Shown piece by piece: positions 2,055-11,879 of a DNA stretch of 64,000 bases (its first letter is position 1; every line of letters begins with the position of its first letter). The translations under genes were made by a program, and so were the position numbers. The notes under the pieces are model-generated. The model did no database searches and was not told the DNA's origin. It worked only from the letters and a program-made list of their open reading frames with translations. The stretch is from an uncultured Monoglobus sp. (GTDB taxonomy: Bacteria; Bacillota; Clostridia; Monoglobales; Monoglobaceae): assembly GCA_947630135.1 (NCBI GenBank), contig CANRGH010000002.1, positions 124,001 through 188,000 of the forward strand, in the 5' to 3' direction.

Positions 2055-2128
2055 CCACTTCTCTCGAGGGAGAGGCAGACGGGGTGTTTGCGCTGCGGAA
2101 TAAAAATAAGCGGAGCCGGACGGCTCCG

Positions 2129-3064
2129 CTATTCAATATCAATTTCTATGCGATGTTCCAGGTCTCCGCTAAGGTCAAGCGATCTCATATAGTCGGCTAT
2201 CTCGCTCCGGGCCTCGTCGATCTCCGCCTTCAGGTCCGAGGCGGAAATCCGCAGCGCGCCGCCGCCCAGAATTATCAGCTGCTCAAGCCCGTCCGACGTC
2301 GCCACGCGGACGCGGTTGTTTTTGCTCAGCCTGTGTGAGGTCTTTTCGATATACATGTCGGCGGTCTCGCGCTCTTTGGTGTACACTATGTCGATATTGT
2401 GATAGCGCTCGACCTCGCCGGGGTTGTTTTTCACCTTATACGCGTCGTAGACCAGGATCACCTCGCATTTTTTAAAGCCGCGGTAATTGCACAGAATGTC
2501 CGCCAGCTTCATACGGGCGGTTTCCATGCTGTCGTCGGCGTATTTTTTAAGCTCGTCCCACGCGAAAATTATGTTGTAGCCGTCAACCAGAAGATAATTA
2601 TCGTCGTTTTGCCTTCTTTTTTCGGCGGCCGACGCGCGCCTTACGGACGTGGAAGGCATGACCGCGCTTGAGCGGCGCGCGGGCTCGTCATTATTCTCCG
2701 CGCGTCTGATCGGACCGTAGGTGCGCTCGAATATCCGCATAAGCTCCTTGTCGGCGGCAATGCTGTCAACAAATTCCTTGGCCCGATTGCGCCCGTGAGC
2801 CGCGGCGGGCTCCGCTTCGCGCTTCAGCGCGCTCTCAAGATGCATATGCTCCGGGACCTCGTCCCACCGCACCGCGTATCCCGCTCCGTGCGAGCAAAAA
2901 ATCGAGTCCGCCGTATTGTCGGTGTCGGCGTCGCAGTCGTAGCCTATTTCCTCGATCACGCTCTCCGCGTCGGCGCAAGGAAAATATCCGCCCGGAATAC
3001 GCGTCAGCCTGCCGCGGCCTGCTGTATAGGCTGCGAGCTCCGCACCGTAGTCAAGCATTTTTTT
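2129..3064 (-). CDS. YacP/Rae1-like NYN ribonuclease domain (C-terminal part of the upstream GTPase, -1 frame)
   Basis: The track lists a 345-codon ORF from 3166, but its first 34 or so residues (RGQGDERRDRRGRKGRAARD) are the shadow of the GTPase frame. The meaningful sequence starts at KMLDYGAELAAYTAGRG, which continues the EF-G C-terminal domain where the upstream ORF breaks off. After the Tet-like tail and a charged linker comes a NYN/PIN-like domain of YacP (Rae1) type: LLVDGYNIIFAW, VILVYDAY, ETADMYIE and VATSDGLEQ supply the expected acidic residues. YacP/Rae1 of Bacillus is a ribosome-dependent endoribonuclease that cuts mRNA in the A site. Here it would be the C-terminal third of a protein of about 876 residues. 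It has no convincing RBS of its own. Confidence 0.8.
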   Translation of the reverse strand, partial: KKMLDYGAELAAYTAGRGRLTRIPGGYFPCADAESVIEEIGYDCDADTDNTADSIFCSHGAGYAVRWDEVPEHMHLESALKREAEPAAAHGRNRAKEFVDSIAADKELMRIFERTYGPIRRAENNDEPARRSSAVMPSTSVRRASAAEKRRQNDDNYLLVDGYNIIFAWDELKKYADDSMETARMKLADILCNYRGFKKCEVILVYDAYKVKNNPGEVERYHNIDIVYTKERETADMYIEKTSHRLSKNNRVRVATSDGLEQLIILGGGALRISASDLKAEIDEARSEIADYMRSLDLSGDLEHRIEIDIE

Positions 3065-4758
3065 ACGGGCGCCGCACCCGTCAGCACCGCGGTCTCGCCG
3101 TCGGTCGCGGGCGGCTCGACCCTTCCTCCCGCGGCGATCACGTCGCTCATCGCCCTGCCCACGCACTCGGACGGAACCTCTATCCTAAGGTCGTACCACG
3201 GCTCGAGCAGCACGCTCTCGGCCTGTCTGAGCCCCTGCCGCACCGCGCGGTATGTGGCTTGGCGAAAGTCGCCGCCCTCTGTGTGCTTTTTGTGCGCCCG
3301 ACCCGAGGCGAGCGTTATTTTTATATCGGTGATCGGCGAGCCCGTCAGCACGCCCAGATGAGTTTTTTCCTTGAGGTGCGTCATGATAAGCCGCTGCCAG
3401 TTTCGGTCAAGCTTGTCCTCGCTGCATTTGGTGAAAAATTTCACGCCGCTGCCCTGCTTGCCGGGTTCCAGGATAAGGTGGACTTCGGCATAGTGGCGCA
3501 GGGGCTCGTAGTGGCCAACGCCCTCGACGATGTTTGAGATCGTCTCCTTGTAGGCTATACCGCCGCGCTCAAACTCGACCTCAAGATTGAACCGCTCGAG
3601 AATGACCCGCCGCAGCACCTCGATCTGTATCTCACCCATGAGCCGCATGCGTATCTCGCGAAGCTGCTCGTTCCAGATTATGTCAAGTTGGGGCTCTTCT
3701 TCCTCAAGTATTCGCAGGCTTCGCAGGGCGGCGTGGACGTCCGTTCCCTCGGGCAGCCGCACCCTGTATGACAGCACGGGGTTCAGCAGCGACCCGCCGA
3801 GATTTTCCTCCGCGCCGAGGCCCTGACCCGGATAGGTTTTCGTGAGGCCCTGCACCGCGCAGACCTGACCGGCAAAGGCCTCGTCCGGCGTTTCAAATTT
3901 CTCGCCGGAGTATATCCGTATCGCGTCGATCTTCTCGCTGAACGGCGCACCGCCGCGGTCCTCGCCGCTTATGACCTCCTTGACCTTGAGCGAACCGCCG
4001 GTTATCTTGATATGTGTTAGCCGCGCGCCGCGCTCGTCCTCGGATATTTTGAACACCCGCGCCGCAAACTCGGGCTTGTATTTCGGAGGCTCGGTGTATT
4101 CCGAGAGAGCGTCCAGAAGCTCCTCGACGCCCTCGCATTTTAAGGCCGAGCCGAAAAAGCACGGGAATATCCCGCGTTCGGCGATTGCGCGAATGAGTTC
4201 GGCCTTGCCGATCCCGCCTCCGAGATAGGCGTCAAGCAGCGCCTCGCCGCACATGGCGGCGGCCTCGTCGAATTCCGAAGTTCCGACTTCCGCAAAGTCA
4301 AGGCAGCCGTCTCCGAGCCGCTTTTTAAGCTCCGACATAAGCGCGCCTCTGTCGGTCCCGTCAAGGTCCATTTTGTTTACGAATATAAAGGTTGGCACAT
4401 TGTAACGCTCAAGCAGCCGCCACAGCGTCTCGGTGTGGCTCTGAACGCCGTCTCTGCCGCTTATGACAAGCACCGCGTAGTCAAGCGCGCCGAGAGCACG
4501 CTCGGCCTCTCCGGAAAAGTCGGTGTGGCCCGGGGTGTCTACCAAAGTAAACTCGGTGCCTTTATAGCCGAATACCGCCTGTTTTGAAAATATTGTGATC
4601 CCGCGCTCGCGCTCGATCCTGTTGGTGTCAAGAAACGCGTCGCCATGGTCGACCCTGCCCCTGCGGCGTATCTCGCCGCTGAGGTACAACAAGGCCTCGG
4701 ACAAGGTGGTCTTGCCCGAGTCCACATGCGCCAGTATTCCGAACACGATCCTTTTCAT
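3004..4758 (-). CDS. EF-G/Tet(M)-like ribosome-associated GTPase, reading frame broken near its end
   Basis: A translation-factor GTPase of the EF-G superfamily, closest in layout to ribosomal protection proteins. Visible motifs are the P loop AHVDSGKTT (residues 9-17), RGITI, DTPGHTDF and NKMD. Domain II and the EF-G III-V domains follow. In frame, the protein goes out of register after GETAVLTGAAPVKK and stops 18 codons later with unrelated sequence (CLTTVRSSQPIQQAAAG). In the -1 frame the EF-G C-terminal domain continues and runs into a NYN nuclease (previous entry). It starts 1 bp after the phosphatase stop, so the two are co-transcribed. Tetracycline resistance should not be assumed: this GTPase-NYN architecture, as far as I know it, is a general clostridial translation factor. 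Confidence 0.85.
   Translation of the reverse strand: MKRIVFGILAHVDSGKTTLSEALLYLSGEIRRRGRVDHGDAFLDTNRIERERGITIFSKQAVFGYKGTEFTLVDTPGHTDFSGEAERALGALDYAVLVISGRDGVQSHTETLWRLLERYNVPTFIFVNKMDLDGTDRGALMSELKKRLGDGCLDFAEVGTSEFDEAAAMCGEALLDAYLGGGIGKAELIRAIAERGIFPCFFGSALKCEGVEELLDALSEYTEPPKYKPEFAARVFKISEDERGARLTHIKITGGSLKVKEVISGEDRGGAPFSEKIDAIRIYSGEKFETPDEAFAGQVCAVQGLTKTYPGQGLGAEENLGGSLLNPVLSYRVRLPEGTDVHAALRSLRILEEEEPQLDIIWNEQLREIRMRLMGEIQIEVLRRVILERFNLEVEFERGGIAYKETISNIVEGVGHYEPLRHYAEVHLILEPGKQGSGVKFFTKCSEDKLDRNWQRLIMTHLKEKTHLGVLTGSPITDIKITLASGRAHKKHTEGGDFRQATYRAVRQGLRQAESVLLEPWYDLRIEVPSECVGRAMSDVIAAGGRVEPPATDGETAVLTGAAPVKKCLTTVRSSQPIQQAAAG
3058..3064 (-). other. A7 slippery heptamer at the frame change
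   Basis: On the minus strand the junction reads CCC GTA AAA AAA TGC. A AAA AAA is a canonical -1 slippery heptamer. Slipping back one base, or inserting one A, joins the GTPase frame to KKMLDYG and the NYN domain. The sequence cannot tell programmed frameshifting from a homopolymer indel. Confidence 0.7.
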
Positions 4759-4759
4759 A

Positions 4760-5206
4760 TTAAATCTCCTTCATCAGTCCCTCAAGGCCCAGCATAATAT
4801 CGTCGTATGTAACGTCAAAATTTCCGGTGTACCACGGGTCGGCGACATCTCGCGAAAGGCCCGCATATTCAAGCATGAGCTTGACCTTTCCCTCCGGGTC
4901 GCCGCCGAATATCCGCTTCATGTTGCGGATATTGGCGCCGTCCATGCCGATAAAAAGATCATAATCGTCATAGTCCGAGTTTACAAGCTTGCGCGCCCGT
5001 TTGCCCTTGGCCGAGATTCCGTGCTCGGCCAGCTTGCGCTTTGTGCCCGGATGCACCGGATTGCCGATCTCCTCATAGCTCGTCGCGGCCGACTCAATCA
5101 GAAATTCATCAGCCCGCCCGGCCTTTTTCACCATATCCTTGAGCAAAAACTCAGCCATTGGCGACCTACAAATATTGCCGTGGCACACGAATAATATTTT
5201 TATCAT
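4760..5206 (-). CDS. Low-molecular-weight protein-tyrosine (or arginine) phosphatase
   Basis: A 148-residue LMW-PTP, the usual length. The CX5R phosphate loop is at the N terminus (VCHGNICRSPMAEF, residues 8-21), and the general-acid Asp is in DVADPWYTGNFD near residue 120. In Firmicutes these enzymes remove phosphate from tyrosine or arginine residues (YwlE, PtpA types); the substrate cannot be read here. It is the first gene of a unit with the GTPase-NYN gene, whose RBS lies inside its last codons. A TACAAT -10 element lies about 40 bp upstream with no clear -35. Confidence 0.92.
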   Translation of the reverse strand: MIKILFVCHGNICRSPMAEFLLKDMVKKAGRADEFLIESAATSYEEIGNPVHPGTKRKLAEHGISAKGKRARKLVNSDYDDYDLFIGMDGANIRNMKRIFGGDPEGKVKLMLEYAGLSRDVADPWYTGNFDVTYDDIMLGLEGLMKEI

Positions 5207-5387: not shown

Positions 5388-8300
5388 TTATTCAAAATCC
5401 TGATACTCTATCGTCAGGTTATCGAAATAGTACTCCATCTTGTTTGCCGTGTTGCCCTTGTTATCCATGTAAATATTGAAGTACAGATTATCGAGGTTTA
5501 CATCTGTGGGATAATCCGCCGAGCCTGCCGCGGCTATGGTAAACGGCTTTTTGTTCAGTATCTCCATGTCTTTGTCGCGGTCATACAGAGTCGATGTTAT
5601 GCTCTTGTTTTCAAGATCGATCAGCGCCTCGATCGTGTACCATCTGTTTTTCATGGTGTTATTTTTGTCAAACTGAGTGTTGTCGCCGTTTATGCGGGCG
5701 TTGCCCGGTCCGAACAGATTTATCTGTCCCCAGCCCTTCATTACAGCCCAGCGGGCGAAGCGCGTTTGATCGGCAATGTTTTGGCCTTTATTATCCGTGC
5801 TTGTCGCCAGATCGAAATACGACTGGTCGGACGGATAGTAATCGGTCGTCTCCATCAGAAAATCATAGCTGAACTTTATTGTCTTGCTGTTGTTTAAAGT
5901 TCCGTTTCCCAAAAGCTTTTTAAGGTCAAAGCTTACGCCGACGTTATTCTTAACGGTCGCTCCTTCGTTTTTGGTCAGCTTATACACAACGTTGCCCGAG
6001 CCGAGGTTCGCGCTCTCGCTGCCGTTTGCGGTGTAAACGCCCGCGCTGAAACCGCTTGCCGCCGTGATCGTCGGATCCATTCCGGCGAAGTCGGTGCTTG
6101 TCTTTGTAATAGTCTCCATCTTTTTCGCGCTCACGTCAAATGTCTTTGTATCACCCTTGGCTCCCGTGATCTCCGCTTCAAGCGTGTCTATATTATACGC
6201 CGTGTCCGAGATCGAGGCCGTCACGGTGTATGTGCCGACCGGGATATTCTCGGCGGTGTAGCTCGCGGTTGTCTGATTTGCGGGAACGGTGACGTTCACG
6301 GTCTTTATCACCGCGTTGTTTTTCTTGACCCTGATAGTGACGGTCTGCTCATTATCGCTCGCGGGATTAAGCGTGACATTGCCGTTCAATGTGAACACGT
6401 TCTCGGTGTCGCTTGTGGGCTGTATCTTAAAGGATATCGACTTTTTGTCGCCGATCGACTTATCGGCCGCCGTTCTCGCGTAGAGTATCACGGTGGCGTC
6501 TATCGGCTGCTCGCCGTTTGCGGGGCGGATAAGGCTCAGCTTGTTTCCGTTAACCGTCGCGAACTCGCTGTCGCTCTCCCATTTAAACTCGTATCCGCTC
6601 GGCGCGGCGGGGAGGTCGATCTCGCTTTTGGTTCCGTCGCTTGTGTCTATATTCGTTGAGGCAAGAACGCCGTCAACGCCCTCATATTTGCTTTTAACTC
6701 CCGCGGGATCCCAATCATCCGAGCCCTTTGTGAAGGTGTAGGGATTGTATCGGAGCATTGTCCACTCGTCAAGAAGCTGTCCGCGGCGCTTTGAAACGTC
6801 TACAGCCTTACCTGAATCATCAACGCTGCCGTACTCGTAAAATCTTGCTTCCTCGGGCTTATTGCCGCTCATGTCGGTCCAGCCGGAACTTGAGATCAGA
6901 TACGGATCAGAACTTGAGCCTTTGGCCGCGTTTCCGATTTTAGTGTTGATATACGCCGCGGCGGGTCCCGGAGGCGCGCCCCATGGTCTGCCCATATTTC
7001 CGGGCTGAGCCACGCTTGAACCTGTGACATAGCAGTTATAGAACAAATAGCCTTCAGACTCTTTGGTGTTGCTGGGAGCCGTTACAGTGGCGGACTCACC
7101 TTTTCCGCCCGCGTTGACATAAAGCTCGCAGTTATCGAACACGGCTGTCGCGCTGCCGCAGATATAGTCGGTTGTTCCGCCGAGCTTGCAGTTCTTGAAG
7201 TACATTCTGCCGCTGTTGATACCTATCGTGTCCTGGGTCGATATAATCTCGCAGTTTAAGAACACAGCCTTGTCCGCCGAGCAGTGAAGCGCGGCGCATC
7301 GCTCTCTGGGACTGCCGTCAACGCCCTTGTATGTTATATTGTCGCGGGACTGCAAATACGCGTTTATCTCATCATCGCTCTTGCCCGCGGCTTTCTGCTC
7401 GTTTATCCATTCCACCCTGTGGAAATTTCCATTGTTTGTGTCCGGATCAACGCCGGTAATATCGGTGAGTTCTTCCTCGGTATAATATCTGTTGTATGAA
7501 TTTTCCAGTATCAAATTCTCGGCTGTAAATCCTGTCGCGGTCTTGTCGACTTTAAGCGCCGGGCCCCAGTCCTTCGGACCGTAACTCTTGCCGTCGCCTA
7601 TCGCTTGCGGATCATAGTAACCGCTTTCGTTGCAGCTGTCGTAAAGCGAGCCCAGTCCGTAATACCATGTCAAAAGCGCGTCTCCCTCGCTGCCCGCCTT
7701 TTTGCGCAGCGTTATGTACGGAGTTTTTACAACGATCTGCTCGCGATATGTGCCGGGGGCTATGTCAATATATACTCGGTCGGCTTCCGATTTGGGATTC
7801 ATTGCCGCGGCCGCGGCTACCGCCTCGGATATGGTGTTGTATTTCGTCTCGCCTATATAAACTCCCTTAGCCGCGGGGTCCGCGGTCGGAGCCGCTGTGG
7901 GCTTTGCCGTTGGCGCAAGAGTCGGGGCGTTGGTCGGATTTGCCGTAGGAGCAGTTGTGGGCGCGTTGGTCGGAGCCGCTGTGGGCGCCGCTGTAGGAGT
8001 CGAGGCAGGAACATCAGTTCCTACCTCGTATACCGCGCCTTTCGGTTCGATCGTGTCTGTGCCGTCCCAGACATACAGCTTTACTTTTCCGGTTTCGGGC
8101 TTTTTGAAGTCGAGATTTTTAACGTCCGTGCCTTCTATGTCGTATACCGCCGAGTCGAGCATGATCTTTTCGTCGCTCTCGTCGTACACACCGACCATCA
8201 GCTTGGCCTTGGGGCTTGCCTCGGTTCCGTTGTAGCTGAGGCTTACGCCGAGAGTGCCGTCCGCGCCGTAAGAGGCGTTTGTGATCTCATAGTCATAGCT

Positions 8301-11300
8301 TACGGGCGCGGGAGGCGTTGTGGGGTCGGTATCTCCGCTGTATTCGGGATTTAAGTATTTGTAGTCATACACAAAATCACCGATATTGCAGAGATATTTC
8401 TGTCCCTCCTTATAAGGCTCGCCTTTCGCGACAATATATAAATCGTGCTTGCCGGTAATGCCATCAATGTTTTTAAGATCAAGAGCGTACGATCCGGTCT
8501 CAGTCACATTGATCTTGGCGATCTCAACGCCGTCTTTTTTGTCAAGTCTCACCGAAACGGTCGGATTTGCGTCATAGTATCTGCTGATTGCCAAAGACGC
8601 GTTTGTGATACCCGTCAGGTCAACGCCTTTAAAGCAGAAACCGACTTCAACATCCTTTCTGTTGTTTACATATCCAACGGCGTTTCCGTCAACAACTTTC
8701 GGAACCGCTCCGTTATCGCTCGCGAAAAAGCCTGTGGCGGTATTCGCGAATACCGTGTTTGTGCCCTCCAGATACTTGGGTATCTGTTTTTCAAAATGCG
8801 TCACGGTGTATGTCTCGCCCGCCTTGCCCGCGATCGTCGCGATATTTGTGTCGGGATCGAACGCAAATTCCACATTGTTTCCGGCAGAGTCGACAATTGT
8901 TCCCAATCCCAGCTTTTCTTCGCGGATTCTGATGTCGCCGTCTCTGACCGCTTTCAGCGAGAGTTCGGTTATCTCGCCGTTTTGCCATGCCGCGGAGACT
9001 TCCGCGTTTTCGCGGGTCATAAATCCTTCAAACGAACCGTTTTTCCACGATGAAGGTATCGCGGGAATAACATCTATCGCTCCGGTATGGCTCTGCAGCA
9101 CCATTTCGGTTATTCCGGATGTCGCTCCGTAATTTCCGTCGATCTGGAAATCGGGGTGCTCGTCAAAAAGATTGGGAGCTGTGCGGCACAGGAAGAGCTG
9201 TTTGAGCATATTCTCCGTCTTGTCGCCCTGGAGAGCTCTGGCGTTCAAATTCATTCTCCACGCCAAACTCCAGCCTTTGCCGTCCGCGCTGTCCTTGGCG
9301 GTCGTTGAGCCTTGGAACGCTTTAAATATCTTTTGCTCGTTTACGTCGCTGCTGTAGGGATTAATGTGCGTTCCCGGGAACAGTTCCCAAAGGTGCGAGC
9401 AGTGTCTGTGGCCCGCTCCGACGCTGTGCTCCTTAATACTGATCTCTTCTCCCGTAAACGGATTTTTTATGTTCTTGTATTTTTCCGCGGTGGGGTTGTC
9501 GTTTTCGGTGAAATCAAACGTGACGTCGCCGCGCACCCATTCCTGGATACCGCCGTTTCCGACCACATCGGGAGCTATTTTGCCTTTCTCGCTCGCGAAA
9601 TAAGTCGAGGGCATCTGCTCGTCGATCTTCGCCAGCAGATCGGCATTTTCTCCGGTTTTGCCGAGTATTTCGCTCGCCTGCCGAACCATGTCATAGAGGT
9701 TTCTTACAAGCTGGGTGTCCATCGCGGGGCCGGGCTGAACGCCGCCCTGCTCGGGCGAGCAAGACGCGGCGGTGATCAGATAGCCTGTCTTGGGGTCGAC
9801 AACCAGGAACTGCGTGAAGAACTTGGCCGCGCCCACCATGTAGGGATAGACCTCGGCGAGATAAGCCTCGTCCTTGTTAAATTTATAGTACTGCCAAGCG
9901 TGGTCGAGCAGCCATGCTCCGCCCGTGGGCCACAGACCCGCCGTGGCGTTGTCTATCGGCTGAGTGCCGCGCCACAGATCAAAGTTGTGGTGCATTACCC
10001 ACGGGTCGCCGGGCTGATATGTCTCGCAGTTTCCTATTCCGTACTGATAATCGGCGGTAATACTTCCGCTCTGGGCCAGCTCCTTGAACGTGTCAATGAG
10101 AGTCTTTTCACTCTCGCCTATATTAAGAGGCTGAGCCGCCCAGTAGTTCATCTCGGTGTTGATATTTATCGTGTATTTTCCGTTCCAGCCCGCAGTCATG
10201 GCGGCGTTCCACTTTCCGGTCAGATTAAGGGGCTGGCTCTCCTGTATCTCGATATCATCGCCGCTTGCGGCGCGTCCGTCGCGGGCGCCCGAAAGCAGAA
10301 GATATTTGCCGTAATTGAACTCAAGCACCGCCAGTTTGTAATCTCCGTCGTCGTATGTGGTCTTTATGCCGTTGGCTGCCGCCTTTGACGCATTGCTGTC
10401 AGAGCCGGTAAGATAGCCCGAATTTCCTCCTATATCCTTGCGCACTCTCTTCTCGGTGGGAGTGTCAGTGTACTCGTAGCCCTCTTTATTGTCTATTGTC
10501 AGACTTGATTTTGAATACTGCTCCGTAAAATCGGCGAGATGACGCGCTTTTATCTGCTCGTAATTTCTCTTTTGAACATTCGCTGAATATCTGTCGCAGT
10601 CACGTCCGGGCTTTGAGTTGTCAAGATTCAGATAATCAACATAATTCGTGGCGCCCACAACATAAACCGTGGCGCTTTTGCCGCCTTTTACCGAGACGGT
10701 CTTGTTATCCTCGCTTACCGAAAACGCTCCGTCTCCCTCAAGTATCATTCTCGCCTCAAAGGTTATAGCGTTCAGTCTTGAGGGCTGTCCGTTGTTAGAA
10801 TTTCCGTTTCTGACACTTGCGGTCAGTTTAACCTCTTTGTCACTTACCTTTGTATACTTTGCAACATCTTCATGGTATGTATGCAGCTCGGCGCTCATAT
10901 TAAGCTCGCCGTCGGTTTCAACATGGGTCGCCACAGTCTGATCGGGATAGCTTGCAAAGCTCTCGCGCTTATAGTGCTTGCCTCCCAGATCATACTCAAC
11001 CGTCACGATACCGGTTTTCATATCAAGACTCTTGGTGTAGTTCTCCGCGTCCTTGTAGCTCTGACCGAAATCAAGATATACCTCGGCAAAAGACTTATAC
11101 GCTCTCTGACCCGTAGGGGTGCCCAAGAATTTCGCTTCAACCAGACTGTGGAGATTCCACCTGTCCTGAACGGCCGACTGCTCCTTGGCGTTGTTTACGC
11201 CGAGCGCCATATTTGAGATGCTCTTGTTCGCGTAATCGGGGAACTGAGTTCTGAAAGCCTCATCACCCACGATCGCGTCGGCCGAGCCTATCTCGGCGGG

Positions 11301-11879
11301 TGTGCCGTCGGCGTTCGCGCCGCGGAAATATTTCCAGCCGCCGTCATTGCTGCCGCCGGTTTGATTTTGAGTGGTTATTGTCTTGGCGTTTGTCGTTCCG
11401 TCAACGGTCGTAACCTTGTTGCCGTTTTCATCGATCAGTTCTCCGTACGGTGAACCGTCCCAGCAGGTGTCCTCGTTGATCTGAATAACGTCCTTGTCGA
11501 TTCCTCCGGCTACCATTGCCGCCATGCGGCCGTTGCCGATTGGATAGAAGTGGGTCCAGAGATATTCAGAATATGCCCAGCCGGTGAAATACTTGCCTTT
11601 CGCCTCATACGGCTTTTGAATATCGTTTCCGTTTCTGTCCTTCGCATTTGATTTTTTGTCGGCATTTGGGTTGATCTTCGCGGCGTTTTCATAAACGCCG
11701 TCGCGCGCGAGCACTTCGTCGATGGTGGTATCGGTCCACATGGTGGTTTCGGGGTCGAATTTCGCCGCCGCTGTTTCCGCCGCGGCGGAGTCAACGCTTT
11801 CGGTCTCCGCGAAAACCGCGGGAGCCGCCGTCAGAACCATTGCCGCCGACAGAGCGGACGCCAACAATCTTTTTAACAT
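5388..11879 (-). CDS. Secreted multidomain GH95 glycosidase - CE8 pectin methylesterase
   Basis: A 2163-residue exported protein. Residues 1-24 are a signal peptide (MLKRLLASALSAAMVLTAAP). Residues about 45-1040 form a GH95 module (alpha-L-fucosidase / alpha-L-galactosidase family): INTEMNYW near 572 matches the catalytic Asn pair, CSPEQGG near 705 the acid Glu, and FQIDGNYG near 910 the conserved Asp. Then come a CBM-like beta-sandwich (about 1045-1185), a small beta-module, a Thr/Ala/Pro linker (about 1290-1340), and a CE8 pectinesterase with QDTIG (about 1549), DYICGSATAVFDNCE and GRPWG (about 1628). The last 450 residues are Ig-like and concanavalin-like beta domains. It probably removes terminal L-sugars and methyl esters from pectin side chains outside the cell. 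No SLH or sortase signal is visible. The RBS AGGAGGAATTTTT is strong. Confidence 0.9.
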   Translation of the reverse strand: MLKRLLASALSAAMVLTAAPAVFAETESVDSAAAETAAAKFDPETTMWTDTTIDEVLARDGVYENAAKINPNADKKSNAKDRNGNDIQKPYEAKGKYFTGWAYSEYLWTHFYPIGNGRMAAMVAGGIDKDVIQINEDTCWDGSPYGELIDENGNKVTTVDGTTNAKTITTQNQTGGSNDGGWKYFRGANADGTPAEIGSADAIVGDEAFRTQFPDYANKSISNMALGVNNAKEQSAVQDRWNLHSLVEAKFLGTPTGQRAYKSFAEVYLDFGQSYKDAENYTKSLDMKTGIVTVEYDLGGKHYKRESFASYPDQTVATHVETDGELNMSAELHTYHEDVAKYTKVSDKEVKLTASVRNGNSNNGQPSRLNAITFEARMILEGDGAFSVSEDNKTVSVKGGKSATVYVVGATNYVDYLNLDNSKPGRDCDRYSANVQKRNYEQIKARHLADFTEQYSKSSLTIDNKEGYEYTDTPTEKRVRKDIGGNSGYLTGSDSNASKAAANGIKTTYDDGDYKLAVLEFNYGKYLLLSGARDGRAASGDDIEIQESQPLNLTGKWNAAMTAGWNGKYTININTEMNYWAAQPLNIGESEKTLIDTFKELAQSGSITADYQYGIGNCETYQPGDPWVMHHNFDLWRGTQPIDNATAGLWPTGGAWLLDHAWQYYKFNKDEAYLAEVYPYMVGAAKFFTQFLVVDPKTGYLITAASCSPEQGGVQPGPAMDTQLVRNLYDMVRQASEILGKTGENADLLAKIDEQMPSTYFASEKGKIAPDVVGNGGIQEWVRGDVTFDFTENDNPTAEKYKNIKNPFTGEEISIKEHSVGAGHRHCSHLWELFPGTHINPYSSDVNEQKIFKAFQGSTTAKDSADGKGWSLAWRMNLNARALQGDKTENMLKQLFLCRTAPNLFDEHPDFQIDGNYGATSGITEMVLQSHTGAIDVIPAIPSSWKNGSFEGFMTRENAEVSAAWQNGEITELSLKAVRDGDIRIREEKLGLGTIVDSAGNNVEFAFDPDTNIATIAGKAGETYTVTHFEKQIPKYLEGTNTVFANTATGFFASDNGAVPKVVDGNAVGYVNNRKDVEVGFCFKGVDLTGITNASLAISRYYDANPTVSVRLDKKDGVEIAKINVTETGSYALDLKNIDGITGKHDLYIVAKGEPYKEGQKYLCNIGDFVYDYKYLNPEYSGDTDPTTPPAPVSYDYEITNASYGADGTLGVSLSYNGTEASPKAKLMVGVYDESDEKIMLDSAVYDIEGTDVKNLDFKKPETGKVKLYVWDGTDTIEPKGAVYEVGTDVPASTPTAAPTAAPTNAPTTAPTANPTNAPTLAPTAKPTAAPTADPAAKGVYIGETKYNTISEAVAAAAAMNPKSEADRVYIDIAPGTYREQIVVKTPYITLRKKAGSEGDALLTWYYGLGSLYDSCNESGYYDPQAIGDGKSYGPKDWGPALKVDKTATGFTAENLILENSYNRYYTEEELTDITGVDPDTNNGNFHRVEWINEQKAAGKSDDEINAYLQSRDNITYKGVDGSPRERCAALHCSADKAVFLNCEIISTQDTIGINSGRMYFKNCKLGGTTDYICGSATAVFDNCELYVNAGGKGESATVTAPSNTKESEGYLFYNCYVTGSSVAQPGNMGRPWGAPPGPAAAYINTKIGNAAKGSSSDPYLISSSGWTDMSGNKPEEARFYEYGSVDDSGKAVDVSKRRGQLLDEWTMLRYNPYTFTKGSDDWDPAGVKSKYEGVDGVLASTNIDTSDGTKSEIDLPAAPSGYEFKWESDSEFATVNGNKLSLIRPANGEQPIDATVILYARTAADKSIGDKKSISFKIQPTSDTENVFTLNGNVTLNPASDNEQTVTIRVKKNNAVIKTVNVTVPANQTTASYTAENIPVGTYTVTASISDTAYNIDTLEAEITGAKGDTKTFDVSAKKMETITKTSTDFAGMDPTITAASGFSAGVYTANGSESANLGSGNVVYKLTKNEGATVKNNVGVSFDLKKLLGNGTLNNSKTIKFSYDFLMETTDYYPSDQSYFDLATSTDNKGQNIADQTRFARWAVMKGWGQINLFGPGNARINGDNTQFDKNNTMKNRWYTIEALIDLENKSITSTLYDRDKDMEILNKKPFTIAAAGSADYPTDVNLDNLYFNIYMDNKGNTANKMEYYFDNLTIEYQDFE

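Follow-up and report, generated by a model that had tools for sequence, protein, structure and literature searches.

A conserved fusion of a translational GTPase with a YacP/Rae1-type nuclease, and a private frame break in the copy of an uncultured Monoglobus sp.

Proteins in which a Tet-type GTPase is joined to a YacP-like NYN domain were described in ten Clostridiales by Atkinson et al. in 2015 (PMC4342817), who proposed that in these fusions an RNase aids resistance. The GTPase-NYN fusion is already known, and it is widespread among gut bacteria. The gene analyzed here was found in a window of 64,000 nucleotides (the whole stretch of DNA studied) from an uncultured Monoglobus sp.; it has the domain order of the Tet-like GTPases with a YacP-like NYN domain and comes from the same class of bacteria, but the copy in the window extends over two frames and one of its bases is missing. 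Each half also has a counterpart among other well-known proteins. Rae1/YacP of Bacillus subtilis resembles the nuclease half, given that the NYN domains align over most of their length and that the acidic residues are kept; in contrast, the B. subtilis protein is standalone (a chain of 181 residues in the PDB), whereas the NYN domain of the window forms the C-terminal end of a GTPase. Tet(M)/Tet(O) and Otr(A) share with the other half the EF-G-type domains I-V, and are found among its best profile and solved-structure matches; nonetheless, GTPases of the window type score far under the curated family cut-offs and bear a linker and a nuclease. Regarding the change of frame, the closest described system is the -1 frameshifting of the dnaX type, with which the window shares a heptamer rich in A that is in register and has a continuation in the -1 frame; it differs in that the heptamer is not conserved, the stimulators are missing, and the frame-0 product is truncated. 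From the analyses presented here we conclude, with high confidence, that this locus is a known fusion gene and that its frame break is not programmed.

Gene layout and domain composition

The features of the locus are listed in Table 1. The frame-0 ORF extends on the minus strand from 4758 to 3004 and encodes 584 aa, its stop codon being inside domain V just past a run of exactly seven A (T7 on the plus strand, 3058-3064), and the -1-frame ORF, on the same strand, is open throughout from 3166 to 2129. At the run the frame-0 codons are GTA AAA AAA TGC, which places the heptamer A_AAA_AAA in register (3064-3058); one base back, the reading is AAA AAA ATG CTT GAC TAC, the peptide then being ...V K K M L D Y..., and after a -1 step the full-length product would have approximately 876 aa. 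The frames and the Pfam matches confirm the original prediction that the EF-G C-terminal domain breaks at the A7 and continues in the -1 frame into an NYN domain, and the length of the product was also as predicted. What is observed at the locus is far beyond chance. The possibility that the NYN ORF restarts at the ATG inside AAAAAAATG was discarded, since inspection by eye showed no ribosome-binding site, and a protein made in this way would start in the middle of domain V.

Table 1. Features of the fusion locus in the window (positions of the window)
Feature	Position	Strand	Basis or remark
Translational GTPase half of the EF-G/Tet type, domains I-IV and most of V, frame 0	3067..4758	-	Pfam, NCBIfam; single frame in relatives
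A7 run	3058..3064	-	in register as A_AAA_AAA only through the deletion
Private one-base difference	3065..3066	-	GT in the window versus GTT in the two nearest relatives
Out-of-frame tail of the GTPase ORF, CLTTVRSSQPIQQAAAG-stop	3004..3057	-	without counterpart in relatives
Remainder of domain V and linker, -1 frame	2597..3058	-	C/C/H/H positions conserved in almost every relative
NYN nuclease domain of the YacP/Rae1 type, with the C-terminus, -1 frame	2129..2596	-	profile match; dN/dS 0.03-0.04
Probable transcription terminator overlapping the NYN stop codon, GC-rich hairpin and then a T-rich stretch	2100..2137	-	by eye
Low-molecular-weight phosphatase-like gene, immediately upstream of the GTPase	4760..5206	-	open reading frames, Pfam

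The phosphatase-like gene probably shares a transcript with the fusion gene, and its position upstream of the fusion is kept in the closest relatives only. Further along the minus strand (5388-11879) there is an ORF of 2163 aa, secreted-looking, in which a glycoside hydrolase seems by eye to be joined to a pectinesterase-like part; this would fit the pectin-degrading Monoglobus.

The GTPase ORF matches the Pfam profiles GTP_EFTU (7.5e-52) and EFG_IV (1.2e-20); domain 2 of EF-G and EFG_III were also found, with scores just below the Pfam gathering cut-offs, and EFG_C was matched over profile positions 1-53 of 89 only, after which the frame breaks. Among proteins of the PDB, this half aligns to the sequences of TetO, TetM and EF-G. 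An intact relative modeled with AlphaFold (mean pLDDT 83) presents an EF-G-like fold with a C-terminal NYN domain; confidence is good across the GTPase and the greater part of the NYN domain and falls in a stretch before the latter (residues 686-716), and a structural search carried out with this model returns EF-G structures. Domains I-V of the EF-G/Tet type are thus recognized by Pfam, by the PDB sequence matches and by the model. The second ORF matches NYN_YacP (2.5e-49) and its NYN domain aligns with YacP of B. subtilis (PDB 5mq8/5mq9, 4.5e-23). The acidic residues expected in this nuclease were present at the four positions checked (D726, D772, D801 and D823, in L009 numbering); across 92 relatives three of these positions are invariant, and 90 of the 92 conserve the fourth. 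The gene represents a real GTPase-NYN fusion, as originally proposed, and both halves have relatives that act on the ribosome. The linker includes two cysteines and two histidines (C595, C622, H624 and H640, in L009/L042 numbering) that are kept in 91-92 of the 92 fusions; this Cys/His set, which lies past domain V and ahead of the NYN domain, is a possible metal site.

Comparison with relatives and the origin of the frame break

The GTPase is present in the 12 genomes of the genus and in 24 of the 38 genomes of the family, where it is encoded together with the NYN domain in a single open frame of 852-953 aa, with the exception of the window and of L031. The latter (G018, contig C5, 1492-3459) is a homologue of about 655-661 aa that has the GTPase and the conserved linker and is devoid of the NYN domain; a NYN_YacP domain was not found elsewhere in that genome. 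In a tblastn comparison over the homologous loci, 104 of 106 related fusions are in one continuous frame, which is not the case for the window copy. Given that the window gene clearly belongs to this family by its sequence, the split frame marks a broken copy and not a different family; the window carries the Monoglobus version of a chromosomal protein conserved in Clostridia, which is normally encoded in one frame of about 850-950 aa.

The two broken fusions among these 106 are interrupted at sites other than that of the window. In L032 (G263, contig C121, ~2911-2939), from a draft assembly, a small indel breaks the frame near residue 622, in the linker. In L111 the homologous gene is split near residue 455 by an inserted segment of some 160 bases (~5490-5650) with inverted ends (CACGGAAATCAATTTT / AAAATTGATTTCCGTG), which looks like a candidate miniature mobile element.

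The nearest relatives, G004 and G007 (95.6% and 94.8% nucleotide identity, respectively), read GTT AAA AAA ATG at the junction, which encodes V K K M without any change of frame. The window reads GT AAAAAAA TG at the same place, with one T fewer and an equal count of seven A, so that A_AAA_AAA is in register in the window because of the one-base deletion. In more distant relatives the A run is absent from the junction. The frame break is a private loss of one base, most likely resulting either from a very recent mutation or from an error of the assembly. A simple homopolymer indel, the competing explanation of the original prediction, was right in kind, as one base was lost, and not in detail, as the lost base is a T beside the run and the number of A is unchanged; a miscount of seven for eight A is discarded as stated, since the relatives also have seven and the missing T explains the frame.

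In comparison with the two nearest relatives, dN/dS is 0.03 and 0.04 for the NYN half, and similar values were obtained for the GTPase half (0.03 and 0.06). Strong purifying selection acts on the NYN half, which implies that the lesion is very recent, is an assembly error, or is leakily bypassed at the A7; a decaying pseudogene was discarded because no relaxation of selection is seen. In the syntenic comparison this is the sole frame break in approximately 8,700 aligned residues against G004 and 6,900 against G007, and a generally poor assembly was thus discarded for the compared stretch.

Two explanations of the missing base deserve to be weighed. For an error of assembly or sequencing, with the gene of the organism intact, the case is evenly balanced. 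The break is private to one assembly and adjoins a homopolymer, relatives of about 95% identity are intact, the two halves are similarly constrained, and L032 is likewise broken by a small indel at a different site in another draft assembly; on the other hand, the missing base is a T that leaves the length of the A run unchanged, and the syntenic stretch shows an assembly that is not generally poor. The alternative is a real and recent mutation that either inactivates the gene or is rescued in part through slippage on the A7; we regard it as possible, somewhat short of an even chance. The cleanness of the surrounding assembly speaks for it, and the A7 in register would permit some -1 recoding; a heptamer that the deletion puts in the very register needed for a -1 rescue has the look of a tolerated frameshift. 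However, this is the only NYN_YacP of the genome and it shows no decay, so that this reading requires either a very recent loss or a sufficient leak, and the precedent for rescue by slippage at an oligo-A tract, reported for atpB of Oenothera (PMC8254509), has a tract of 11 A. In the assembly, the T missing beside the A7 breaks the frame inside domain V, with no built-in frameshift signal. If the lesion is real, the cell would make a GTPase truncated in domain V and, by slippage at the A7, at most a little of the full-length protein. That the deletion is real and fixed in the species, with enough recoding at the A7 to supply the full Rae1-like fusion at a reduced dose, is very unlikely; if true, it would be a frameshift of recent origin, tolerated thanks to a homopolymer that the deletion itself made slippery in register.

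It could also be argued that the gene is a mobile tetracycline-resistance gene for ribosomal protection with an added nuclease, an improbable reading. The best NCBIfam profile is tet_protect, resistance is the role suggested by Atkinson et al. (PMC4342817), and a homologue from Agathobacter rectalis in the plasmid collection is named by NCBI as a member of the TetM/TetW/TetO/TetS family. Nevertheless, the score is far under every curated Tet cut-off (L042, an intact relative, reaches 384 of 775 for tet_protect and 256 of 1100 for tet_protect_M_W), the gene is single-copy across the whole genus, and there is no tie to plasmids or phages, given that only two plasmid-collection and two phage-collection records cover most of the query. 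A search on Monoglobus and tetracycline resistance returned nothing useful.

The original prediction favored a programmed -1 slip on the A7 that, as in dnaX, would yield the GTPase alone and the GTPase-nuclease. In agreement with it, the heptamer is in register, the -1 step restores exactly the VKKMLDY of the relatives, and the NYN half is still under purifying selection. The A run and the change of frame, however, were not conserved: the close homologues carry the fusion in one frame, an outcome that the original prediction had named as its refutation, most of them lack any A run, an in-frame A_AAA_AAR heptamer at the junction occurs in 0 of 92 aligned fusions, and the two nearest relatives, included among these, require no slip. 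A downstream RNA stimulator, which the original prediction suggested looking for, was not found: no hairpin that follows the rules of PMC4066793 occurs past the A7 and the folding of the region downstream was no more stable than that of shuffled sequences (z of +0.7 and +1.0); no Shine-Dalgarno-like motif is present in the 30 bases upstream. In E. coli, frameshift-prone heptamers without stimulators reach merely about 2-10 times a background of 0.055% (PMC4066793). In addition, the frame-0 product would lose a helix (571-578) and a strand (584-594), the last ones of domain V in the model of the intact relative, and therefore it would not be a finished GTPase. Considering conservation, stimulators and the anatomy of the product together, the programmed slip is discarded as highly improbable. 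The region around and after the A run in the nearest intact relative (L042, 5990-6063) folds better than shuffles (z of -2.1), a difference from the window that probably reflects the GC content of the codons.

Distribution of the nuclease domain and role of the fusion

NYN_YacP was detected in 249 of 393 Clostridia genomes, exactly once in all but five of these. Among the 150 matches listed, 79 are in frames of at least 800 aa, 65 are standalone (at most 230 aa) and six are between; the match of the window itself (351 aa) falls below these 150. Four of the six intermediate frames among the matches listed run off the end of the contig, as judged from their coordinates, and the others are L033 (G097), 5'-truncated inside its contig, and L032, a true frame break. 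In the 38 genomes of the family each NYN_YacP is the single copy of its genome and is part of a long fused frame, the window excepted; the genome of the window has it once, at the fusion locus only.

In a tree of 62 NYN domains the fused and the standalone forms are separated with full support, except for L134 (G238, contig C1, 394300-395800), a standalone NYN_YacP placed inside the fused clade with 94/96 support, which is perhaps a later split of the fusion. The single copy per genome together with the fact that the fused forms are essentially one clade suggests that one old fusion replaced the ordinary, standalone Rae1 in many gut bacteria. Likewise, given that, with few exceptions, a Clostridia genome that has NYN_YacP has a single one, either standalone or fused, the fusion appears to be the only Rae1 where it occurs; from this distribution, it looks like the only Rae1 of its lineage and not an acquired resistance gene. 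NCBI names the homologue of Monoglobus pectinilyticus simply as 'translation factor GTPase family protein'.

The intact fusion combines a GTPase expected to dock where EF-G does with a Rae1 domain, and is best read as a GTPase-delivered Rae1. On stalled ribosomes the EF-G-like part would occupy the factor-binding site, and the docked GTPase would bring the NYN domain to the mRNA in the A site; for this mechanism of delivery we see about as much for as against. The frameshift itself, being private to one assembly, carries no weight. The fusion family deserves more attention than it has received so far, since the replacement of Rae1 by a GTPase-coupled form would make the delivery of a nuclease by a translational GTPase a testable question.
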